64,000 nt of DNA, taken from Kordiimonas sp. Lineage in GTDB: Bacteria; Pseudomonadota; Alphaproteobacteria; Sphingomonadales; Emcibacteraceae. Of this stretch, positions 29,578 through 51,090 are shown one piece after another. The DNA is taken from positions 62,001 through 126,000 of the forward strand of contig PADB01000010.1 in the NCBI GenBank assembly GCA_002700365.1, given 5' to 3'. The first letter of the stretch is position 1. Every line of letters begins with the position of its first letter. A model generated the notes under the pieces. It saw nothing but the letters and a program-made list of their open reading frames with translations. It had not been told where the DNA came from and made no database searches. The position numbers were made by a program, and so were the translations under genes.

Positions 29578-31125
29578 CTATGCTGATAATTCCGCAGGCG
29601 CTGTTTTTTCCCTTTTGGTCACCAACTTGTTTACTGCATTGATATAGGCTTTGGCAGAGGCAACCATAGTATCCAGATGCGCTGCCATACCGTTGACAGT
29701 CTTGCCATCTTCCTCCAACCGCACTGTCACTTCAGCCTGCGCATCCGTCCCTCCGGTTACCGCATGCACCTGGTACAATTGCAAATGTGCATTCGGCGCG
29801 CAATTAGACTTGATCGCCTTGAAAATTGCATCGACAGGGCCGTCACCATCTGCTGAAACTGTCACCACATCTCCGTCTATCTCCAATTCCAACGTTGCGG
29901 CATTATGCGCTTCATTCGAATTACAGCTGATATCCCAGCTTAATAAACGGATATGTTCATTGACACGGAAACCATCATCAACCAATGCAATGATATCTTC
30001 ATCAAAGACATCTTTCTTCTTATCCGCCAAATCTTTAAAGCGGTTGAAAGCATCTAGGAATTGATTATCACCCACTTCGTAACCTAAATCTTTCAGCTTT
30101 TCGCGGAAAGCATGGCGTCCGGAATGTTTACCCATGACCAATGTGGACTTCTTCAATCCTACGGATTCCGGCGTCATAATTTCATAGGTTTGGGCATTTT
30201 TCAGCATGCCGTCCTGATGGATGCCACTTTCGTGGGCAAAGGCATTCGCCCCGACAATCGCCTTATTATTCTGTACTGTTAAACCCGTCACCGCAGAAAC
30301 CAACCGTGACGCTGGTGTGATATGTTCACTTACCACACCAGTGGTATAGGGTAATTCGTCCTGGCGTGTTTTAAACGCCATGACAACCTCTTCCAAGGCC
30401 GCATTCCCGGCCCGTTCCCCAATACCATTAATCGTGCATTCGATCTGACGGGCCCCGGCCTTAACACCGGCAATAGAATTCGCAACCCCCAAGCCTAAAT
30501 CATTGTGACAATGCGTTGAAATAACCGCCTTATCAATGTTCGGCACCCGGTCATGGATCATTTTTATCAGACTAAAATACTCTTCCGGCACCGTATAGCC
30601 CACCGTATCTGGCACATTAATGGTGGTCGCACCAGCATTGATCGCCACTTCGATAGACTGACATAAGAAATCGTGTTCCGTGCGCGTCCCGTCTTCGCAT
30701 GACCATTCTACGTCCGGACACACACTTCGGGCATGTGATACGCTATCTGCTATTGCTTCCAATACCTGTTCGGGTTCCATCTGCAATTTGTATTTCATAT
30801 GCAACGGACTTGTGGAAATAAAGGTATGGATGCGTGGGCGCTTGGCATCCCGTAATGCTTCCCATGCGCGGTCGATATCTTTACGACTGGCCCGCGCCAA
30901 AGAGCACACAGAGGTTTTTTCCATCAAACGCGCTACTTCGCGTACAGCTTCAAAATCACCGTTAGAAGCAATTGCAAAACCCGCCTCGATAACATCAACG
31001 CCCAGATTTTCCAGCATCTCTGCAACACGCAACTTCTCTGTCAATGTCATAGATGCGCCAGGGGACTGTTCACCATCCCGCAAGGTGGTGTCGAAAATAA
31101 TTACTCGATTGTTTTCTTGGTTCAT
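29578..31125 (-). CDS. leuA: 2-Isopropylmalate synthase
   Basis: 515 residues. First committed enzyme of leucine synthesis, condensing acetyl-CoA with 2-oxoisovalerate. The TIM barrel has FDTTLRDGEQSPGASM, HCHNDLGLGVANS and the regulatory/catalytic GIGERAGN; the C-terminal half is the leucine-sensing LeuA regulatory domain. N-terminus follows the family start. The Shine-Dalgarno sequence is weak (AGCGGA), and a 10-codon mini-ORF ends 4 bases upstream, so translation may depend on the leader described at 31126-31404. Confidence 0.97.
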   Translation of the reverse strand: MNQENNRVIIFDTTLRDGEQSPGASMTLTEKLRVAEMLENLGVDVIEAGFAIASNGDFEAVREVARLMEKTSVCSLARASRKDIDRAWEALRDAKRPRIHTFISTSPLHMKYKLQMEPEQVLEAIADSVSHARSVCPDVEWSCEDGTRTEHDFLCQSIEVAINAGATTINVPDTVGYTVPEEYFSLIKMIHDRVPNIDKAVISTHCHNDLGLGVANSIAGVKAGARQIECTINGIGERAGNAALEEVVMAFKTRQDELPYTTGVVSEHITPASRLVSAVTGLTVQNNKAIVGANAFAHESGIHQDGMLKNAQTYEIMTPESVGLKKSTLVMGKHSGRHAFREKLKDLGYEVGDNQFLDAFNRFKDLADKKKDVFDEDIIALVDDGFRVNEHIRLLSWDISCNSNEAHNAATLELEIDGDVVTVSADGDGPVDAIFKAIKSNCAPNAHLQLYQVHAVTGGTDAQAEVTVRLEEDGKTVNGMAAHLDTMVASAKAYINAVNKLVTKREKTAPAELSA

Positions 31126-31404
31126 TTACTTAATTCCGCTCTTCATTTTCTTTTTTAGCCATTTCTCCGTGGAAATAGCCCTACTGGTTCCGCTTTACCC
31201 CTAAATGCCCGCTGCATCGCAGCCTCTATGATGTAAGCATCCAGGGGTCCGTTAGTCGGCAACCCAGTAGTGCGGAAAGATGTGTCAGATGGGAAATGCG
31301 GACAGGGGGAAACATCGTTGCTGCCGCAACGTTCTGTCTTACCTGATCTGAAATAATCTTAACCGTCATTTTCGCTGTCCACATTCCAAAAAAACTGTCT
31401 GGAA
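31126..31404 (-). promoter_or_regulatory. leuA 5' leader, candidate leucine attenuator
   Basis: About 280 nt between the predicted transcription start and leuA. On the minus strand it contains a 47-codon ORF (31226-31369), a segment CTACTGGGTT (31261-31270) inside that ORF and its near complement GAACCAGTAG (31181-31190), then a hairpin with arms GCTATTTC/GAAATGGC (about 31159-31179) and a 10-codon mini-ORF MAKKENEERN (31130-31162). The pairing segment in the ORF contains adjacent leucine codons CTA CTG, as expected when ribosome stalling controls the fold. No terminal U run is visible, so control of translation seems likelier than transcription termination. Mechanism is inference. Confidence 0.55.
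31226..31369 (-). CDS. Candidate leuA leader peptide, 47 residues
   Basis: ATG 31369 to TAG 31228-31226 on the minus strand, with GGA 11 bases upstream. An inner in-frame ATG at about 31315 would give a 29-residue form starting MFPPVRIS. Six leucines fall in the second half (HLTHLSALLGCRL), including one adjacent pair. It ends about 100 bases before leuA. Below the usual gene-size limit and unsupported by homology I can recall; reported because of its position in a long leader with matching RNA pairing. Confidence 0.45.
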   Translation of the reverse strand: MTVKIISDQVRQNVAAATMFPPVRISHLTHLSALLGCRLTDPWMLTS

Positions 31405-31410
31405 TACGAC

Positions 31411-31440
31411 ATTATATAACATGACAATTTAACATTGCAA
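31411..31440 (-). promoter_or_regulatory. leuA: leuA promoter, sigma70-type
   Basis: Read on the minus strand: TTGCAA (31440-31435), an 18-base spacer, TATAAT (31416-31411), predicting a start near 31404. The -10 box is a perfect consensus. It abuts the 3' end of the MmcQ/YjbR gene. Confidence 0.7.
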
Positions 31441-31866: not shown

Positions 31867-31897
31867 AAAAAAAGCCGGGTAAAGGTACCCGGCTTTT
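31867..31897 (-). terminator. Intrinsic terminator after ilvC
   Basis: A perfect 12-bp stem AAAAGCCGGGTA / TACCCGGCTTTT with an AAGG/CCTT loop, followed on the minus strand by a T7 run, 21 bases past the ilvC stop. Confidence 0.9.
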
Positions 31898-31917
31898 CCG
31901 TCATAATAACTTAAAAA

Positions 31918-50595: not shown

Positions 50596-50759
50596 AAGTC
50601 ATCCAACCTAAACGATGGGAATTACCAACAAAGGCCGCACATTGTACCCATCCAAAGAATTTAAGACTGCATATTGCACAAATCCCCCGCCAATGGCAAT
50701 TAACCTGTCCACCATCACCGTCACAATATTTTTCTTCGCACCTCTTTACATAACTAATC

Positions 50760-50788
50760 TTGGAATATTAATAATTACGCCTTATATT
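50760..50788 (+). promoter_or_regulatory. ssrA: tmRNA promoter, sigma70-type
   Basis: TTGGAA (50760-50765), 17-base spacer, TATATT (50783-50788). The predicted start near 50795 falls exactly at a perfect hairpin AGTTGG-GCAA-CCAACT (50794-50809) that should cap the tmRNA precursor. Confidence 0.65.
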
Positions 50789-50793
50789 AAAGA

Positions 50794-51090
50794 AGTTGGG
50801 CAACCAACTATGGCGATAAACAGTCGTGTGGAATAGACGTTGCGGACCCGGGGGCGGTACCCGGCGCCTCCACCAAAAAAAGTCAAAACCTTAAATTTAA
50901 GAGAACGACTTTTTCTGAGGGGGGCGAAATTAGGATCGACGTGCGTAGTAAAGGCATATCTTTCGCTCAGCGTGACACCGCTGCAAAACAGGTCAAAATT
51001 CACAAATGCAAACGATAATGAAGCATTTGCCGTAGCCGCTTAAGGCTACACGGGGTTCGGAGGGCACCTGGCAACAGAAGCCCTTCACTT
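50794..51090 (+). ncRNA. ssrA: Transfer-messenger RNA, circularly permuted two-piece type
   Basis: The acceptor half comes first: a T arm with stem CCGGG/CCCGG and strand CGCCTCC, then ACCA ending at 50875. The mRNA half starts at about 50920 with GGGGGCG, which pairs with CGCCTCC and puts the alanine identity pair G3-U70 in the acceptor stem. The removed spacer (50876-50919) folds on itself (AAAAAGTC with GACTTTTT). The tag ORF is 51008-51043: GCA start, coding ANDNEAFAVAA then TAA, so the full tag with charged Ala is AANDNEAFAVAA (12 residues). It ends in a pairing AGGGC/GCCCT near 51061-51084. The exact 3' end is uncertain by about ten bases. Rescues stalled ribosomes; sspB is the next gene. 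Confidence 0.92.

Follow-up and report, generated by a model that had tools for sequence, protein, structure and literature searches.

A widespread hairpin leader ahead of alphaproteobacterial leuA, met in a diverged Kordiimonas copy: a likely leucine-responsive translational attenuator

Does the DNA ahead of leuA in this Kordiimonas genome carry a leader that responds to leucine and, if so, at which step would it act on the gene? The sequence-only reading of the window (the whole 64,000-nucleotide stretch analyzed here) had proposed that a leader rich in leucine codons controls leuA, and this proposal is supported by both a homologous leader frame and an enrichment of leucine codons. The controlled gene, leuA (2-isopropylmalate synthase; 29578..31125; LeuA homologues in relatives are 65-77% identical), and all of the leader elements before it lie on the minus strand. 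A promoter-like site at 31411..31440 combines TTGCAA (31435-31440), an 18-nt spacer and the TATAAT reported previously, which is present on the minus strand at 31411-31416. The site has 10 of 12 matches in a consensus scan, in which sites of this kind, taken alone, are no more numerous than chance predicts for the region. A leader of about 280 nt from this site to leuA, as described before, is borne out.

Within this leader lies an ORF of 47 codons plus TAG (31226..31369; MTVKIISDQVRQNVAAATMFPPVRISHLTHLSALLGCRLTDPWMLTS), in the frame homologous to the leader of relatives, and its second half holds the six leucine codons that had been counted there (CTG, CTT, CTA, CTG, CTA, CTT). An in-frame upstream ATG at 31384 offers an alternative start, giving 52 codons. 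The leucine run of the window leader is short, consisting of CTA CTG with CTT and CTA nearby. Folding of the whole leader yields -98.9 kcal/mol, compared with -74.1 ± 5.1 kcal/mol for dinucleotide shuffles (z -4.8). In the predicted fold an 11-base pairing links the start region of the ORF, AATGTGGACAG, to CTGTCCGCATT later in the ORF (31294-31384, minus strand), and this pairing might tune translation of the leader.

Relatives from the same family and order were picked by LeuA protein alone, the leader playing no role in their choice. The element was present in each of the 28 whose sequence upstream of leuA is complete, and in a 29th, where a contig end cuts this sequence, the hairpin is still visible. 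It lies about 100-150 nt before leuA. Its core reads GGTCGACTTAGTCGCCCCTGA in most family members and CTTCGACTTAnnnGCCCCTGA on a wider scale, and after the core comes a hairpin whose end is CGTTYAGGGG. Under strict filters, 75 of 385 class genomes were carriers by a covariance model built from the relatives' sequences and 116 by a broader model, the latter a share of about 30% of the sampled alphaproteobacterial genomes that these filters make a lower bound. Culturable carriers include Gluconobacter and Sphingomonas. A pattern scan of GTDB genomes returned at least 119 stretches, and those listed are alphaproteobacterial bar a few with generic or odd bin labels. On comparison of the sequences, the window leader belongs to a regulatory element that is widespread before alphaproteobacterial leuA genes, of which it is a diverged copy.

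The attachment of this element to leuA is close. The gene lies directly downstream in 165 of 169 element loci, the remaining four being cut by contig ends, and also in 37 of the 40 mostly weak model matches that served as an independent check, where the three matches lacking leuA downstream all have E-values of 7e-4 or worse. In sphingomonad-type genomes, one of them a named Sphingomonas, the element precedes a different, non-orthologous LeuA that is about 28% identical to that of the window, which indicates that the element tracks function and not one gene lineage. The window genome has one copy; a candidate second copy was a weak match (E 0.08) without leuA and was rejected. Outside the Alphaproteobacteria, a phylum sample gave one weak match among 18 (E 0.005), which we took as chance. 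Despite preceding leuA in about 30% of the sampled alphaproteobacterial genomes, the element is absent from Rfam, where neither the window nor any of eight relatives had a match even when E-values were relaxed, and Pfam/NCBIfam profiles gave none up to E 1 for four leader peptides. Our literature search found no description of the alphaproteobacterial element, a statement that does not extend to the survey by Vitreschak et al. (2004), which reportedly treats proteobacterial attenuators, lay outside the search and may mention cases.

The earlier reading had suggested looking among relatives for the frame of the ORF. Homologous frames are found there, and their leucine enrichment is frame-specific: of the last 15 codons across 165 loci, 33% encode leucine when read in the leader frame, as opposed to 4% and 9% in the other two frames. 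The leader peptides of relatives end in LLLGRLSRP-stop and variants of it, the conserved end being Leu-Leu-[Arg/Leu]-Leu-x-x-Pro-stop. Loci from the pattern scan fix CGACTTA and UGA by construction, and statements about invariance therefore use only loci found through the LeuA protein or through the models. In such loci the stop codons are mostly UGA, with some UAA and UAG and a few that are displaced, and CGACUUA varies less than base pairing by itself would demand. Our first impression that CGA-Leu is absolutely invariant was refuted, CGA often being a leucine codon in more distant members; many class members have LLLLSRP, LLLLIRP or LLLLSCP at this point, so that the leucine codons themselves are the constant theme.

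Aligned with these peptides, the window copy is an outlier. Its ORF, ending LSALLG-C-RLTDP-W-MLTS-stop, is the homologous frame of the relatives' LLG-RLSRP-stop with one codon inserted and with the stop, usually a UGA inside the central hairpin (P1), turned into UGG; CGACTAA also replaces the relatives' CGACTTA. Four independent members (L047, L270, L277 and L286) show the same change of the P1 stop from UGA to UGG, with the stop displaced downstream.

P1 is the most conserved structure of the element. It was absent from the earlier reading, although it is enclosed by the CTACTGG/CCAGTAG pairing reported there. In the window its 5' strand is CCCCTGGATGCT (31236..31247; CCCCTGAnCG in relatives, where it usually contains the leader stop codon) and its 3' strand is GGGCATTTAGGGG (31198..31210; CGTTYAGGGG in relatives), with a predicted apical hairpin, GGCTGCGATGCAGC, at 31211..31224. 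Among the 29 relatives, 8 of 16 pairs have changed on both sides and no shuffle equals the covariation score; in 113 class-wide sequences this holds for 6 of 11 pairs, and 0 of 500 shuffles equal the score. UGA, UAA and UAG stops are all kept with P1 compensated, as in the sphingomonads, whose UAG stops come with compensating bases (GCCCUUAGGCG with CGCCUAAGGGC), and in the window P1 is preserved through a C-G to U-A change. The apical hairpin is general in the family, the inner fold having an energy of -8.0 compared with -5.0 ± 0.2 for shuffled sequences. A weaker hairpin, PA, formed by the leucine region with NNNGCCCC, competes with P1 (0/200 swaps) and may add a further switch. Members of one genus (L011, L016, L022 and L024-L029) have in common a GGAAATATGATA[GA]AATATTTT between P1 and leuA, which looks like the -10 element of a promoter or else like a small AU hairpin.

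P1 is enclosed by an outer stem, P0, formed by the final codons of the leader with a partner located after P1 and before the leuA start. The CTACTGG/CCAGTAG pairing proposed earlier is real and constitutes the P0 of the window, with CCAGTAG at 31181-31187 and not, as had been given, at 31182-31188. It extends to GCACTACTGGGTTGCCGACT (31254..31273, holding the adjacent leucine codons CTA CTG, with CTACTGG at 31264-31270) paired with AGCGGAACCAGTAGGGC (31178..31194). The hairpin noted before leuA is also seen, as GCTATTTCCACGGAGAAATGGC in the predicted fold (31158..31179, between P0 and leuA), and no conserved counterpart of it was established in relatives. What changes is the arrangement, the pairing being an outer stem round the conserved P1 rather than a lone switch beside a start-codon hairpin. 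The 7-base match alone is unremarkable, and P0 is credible in the window because of its longer context and the relatives: taken from -15 to +6 around CGACTAA, the leader forms a stronger duplex with the P1-leuA interval than with 99.6% of shuffled segments.

The end of the leader in relatives (CUUCGACUUA with its neighbors) is complementary to a stretch after P1 that is often the leuA Shine-Dalgarno sequence itself, for example UCCCUUC with GAAGGGA in L033 and GUCCUUC with GAAGGAC in L042. Each leader was paired with its own linker, with the linkers of other genomes (permuted) and with shuffled linkers. Over 165 loci the true pairs have a mean energy of -15.9 kcal/mol, compared with -13.1 ± 0.14 kcal/mol for permuted and -12.5 ± 0.22 kcal/mol for shuffled ones, and 104 nonredundant loci give -19.8 versus -16.1 ± 0.32. 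When the leader is scanned segment by segment, -9..+12 around CGA gives the strongest signal (z -10.5 versus permuted linkers and -17 versus shuffled ones); farther upstream it weakens to z about -2 versus permuted linkers, with nothing beyond shuffles, and in a control pairing of the leader with leuA codons 2-20 there was no gain over shuffles. Complementarity of the last leader codons to the 25 nt before the leuA start is likewise genome-specific (z from -7 to -8 relative to permuted pairs). The leuA ribosome-binding region contains or borders the 3' strand of P0, which sits at a median of about 25 nt before the start, and in some loci the partner is further upstream, as in L037, where it is at least 30 nt before the Shine-Dalgarno sequence. 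At the leucine codon preceding CGA, the third base tends to be the one that fits its partner (CUG/UCGC, p 0.008; CUU/UCGA, p 0.05; CUA, not significant). Pairing between leader codons and the leuA start region has strong comparative support from the more than 100 diverged members in Alphaproteobacteria. Conservation of the pairing among relatives, which the sequence-only reading had proposed as a test, is thus found in kind, as an enclosing stem whose complementarity is specific to each genome.

On these comparative grounds we consider it likely that the element acts as a leucine-responsive translational attenuator of leuA, and it would probably switch the gene on when leucine is short. In this model the leader peptide would be translated and, with ample leucine, the ribosome would pass the leucine codons and leave, allowing P0 to form and close the leuA ribosome-binding region. 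When charged Leu-tRNA is short, the ribosome would stall on the leucine codons just before P1 and occupy the 5' strand of P0, and with P0 blocked in this way the leuA start would be free and leuA could be translated. The leucine pair does lie, as the sequence-only reading had it, within a pairing that a stalled ribosome would break. To judge from footprint size, a ribosome with its front edge at P1 would be decoding the leucine codons just before CGA. The predicted accessibility of the leuA start rises from a mean of 0.34 to 0.44 with a footprint on the leucine codons, compared with 0.38 for a footprint on the stop and 0.36 with P1 blocked, a modest gain that exceeds 0.1 in only 51% of loci. 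In the window, TTCCGC within the leader stretch CTTTCCGC (31272..31279) pairs with GCGGAA (31134..31139), the probable weak Shine-Dalgarno region of leuA, in a minimum-energy fold that belongs to the window genome only. The predicted accessibility of this GCGGAA region rises from 0.54 to 0.82 with a footprint over the leucine pair, and a similar effect is seen with a single sliding mask, that over -41..-10.

The 10-codon ORF MAKKENEERN (31130..31162) does end 4 bases before leuA, as had been described, but the coupling suggested for it is not upheld, ORFs ending near the leuA start occurring in 15% of loci versus 17.5% of shuffled linkers. This ORF lacks conservation among relatives, and we judge it to lie outside the device.

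No intrinsic terminator (a GC-rich stem plus U-run) was found before leuA in the window, which favors translational attenuation, and terminator-like sites occur in only 6 of 165 relatives, in keeping with the earlier proposal of initiation control rather than termination. Leader-peptide control of amino-acid operons nevertheless usually acts on transcription. The same leader and the same stalling could be read out in that way if Rho or another non-canonical terminator halted the closed, untranslated leader before leuA; the linker is indeed untranslated, and the rate of terminator-like hairpins, which a few relatives such as L012 possess, compares with 0.8% in shuffled sequences. We regard this version as unlikely, given that neither the window nor most relatives have a U-run and that the position of the P0 3' strand, in or beside the leuA ribosome-binding region, points to initiation. 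A classical 3:4 stem, in which the linker would pair with the P1 3' strand, was also considered and had no support (z -1.3).

A separate doubt concerns the window copy, which carries CGACUAA for CGACUUA and UGG for the in-hairpin UGA and has fewer clustered leucine codons than most relatives. Decay of this copy into a non-functional form of the element is distinctly unlikely, however: P1 is kept by its compensatory change, P0 is significant by itself, the frame is open, and displaced stops are found in other loci too.

The nascent chain itself might instead be the sensor of leucine or another ligand, with [L/R]-L-x-x-Pro-stop arresting the ribosome in the manner of TnaC or SpeFL and the arrested ribosome reshaping P1. 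Such a device would suit the conserved C-terminal leucine and Pro-stop, the invariance of CGACUUA in loci not chosen by pattern, and the location of the stop codon inside P1. It is very unlikely all the same, as the arginine has become leucine in many class members (LLLLSRP, LLLLIRP), the two residues before the proline are variable, and the stop is displaced in the window and several other loci. Runs of leucine codons better suit stalling by starvation, and a footprint on the leucine codons is predicted to open the leuA start more than a footprint on the stop does. Finally, although P1 and CGACUUA are conserved in sequence beyond what pairing needs, it is highly improbable that the structure is a site for a regulatory protein with the ORF secondary, as was proposed for the actinobacterial LEU element (PMC1262725), for this would give no reason for the frame-specific leucine enrichment and the preserved stops, and no candidate protein is known.

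As a putative translational attenuator, the element resembles the classical leu/ilv transcription attenuators (E. coli leuL type) in its end-product-rich leader peptide, its alternative pairings and its presumed control of a leucine gene. It differs from them in having no U-run terminator and in that the target's start region has the leader codons as its pairing partner. In ermC-type translational attenuators a stalled leader ribosome opens the downstream ribosome-binding site, the signal being an antibiotic together with a stalling peptide. Stalling would have the same effect here, with a shortage of Leu-tRNA as the signal instead.

The closest known system is the LEU element of actinobacterial leuA genes, which has a leader ORF with a leucine run, a pseudoknot, and a base stem between leucine codons and the Shine-Dalgarno sequence (Seliverstov et al. 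2005, PMC1262725). Its authors doubted attenuation and proposed a binding protein, and codon changes in actinobacterial leuA leaders were reported as not fitting classical attenuation (PMC1262725). The alphaproteobacterial form shares with it a leader ORF with leucine codons, a hairpin right after this, the lack of a terminator, the attachment to leuA, and a base stem between the leucine codons and the leuA Shine-Dalgarno region. Unlike the LEU element, it has no pseudoknot joining the hairpin to the linker, the P1 loop pairing with its own linker no better than with permuted mates (z -0.2) or with shuffles. Its P1 also has a different sequence, usually with the stop inside and with an apical hairpin instead, and its leader is about 36-52 codons long as opposed to about 13-15.

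The S. lividans leader LeuL1, MRFGLLLLSCRGEGL, contains LLLLSC (PMC8079986), and the core CTTCTTAGCTGCC occurs in the Microbacterium and Nonomuraea leuA leaders of plasmid-collection records. Shuffle tests on four single actinobacterial leaders were mostly not significant, the pseudoknot there being taken from PMC1262725, and the alphaproteobacterial model matches one of these four, that of Microbacterium, in the right place and weakly (E 0.026). Common ancestry of the two elements is suggested by such sequence resemblance, and not proven. We put forward only tentatively the possibility that Alphaproteobacteria and Actinobacteria have in common a single class of leucine-sensing translational attenuator, in which leucine codons would close the start of leuA and the stop would usually lie in the central hairpin, before leuA genes that are not orthologous. 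If true, this shared class would account for the LEU element of Actinobacteria, the mechanism of which has been undecided since 2005. Replicons of Sinorhizobium meliloti, Shinella and Tistrella (L216, L217 and L219) carry a second, actinobacterial-type leuA whose leaders are leucine-rich and have other hairpins; those of Shinella and Tistrella keep CGACTTA and look intermediate between the two forms.

Some further features of the window were observed around and beyond this locus. Between ilvC and leuA lies a gene of the YjbR family (PF04237; 31443-31808, minus strand), and ilvC is followed by a hairpin with a T-run at about 31870-31900, which implies that leuA is probably transcribed apart from ilvIHC. 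At 50756-51089, on the plus strand, the window holds a two-piece (permuted) tmRNA gene of the alphaproteobacterial kind.
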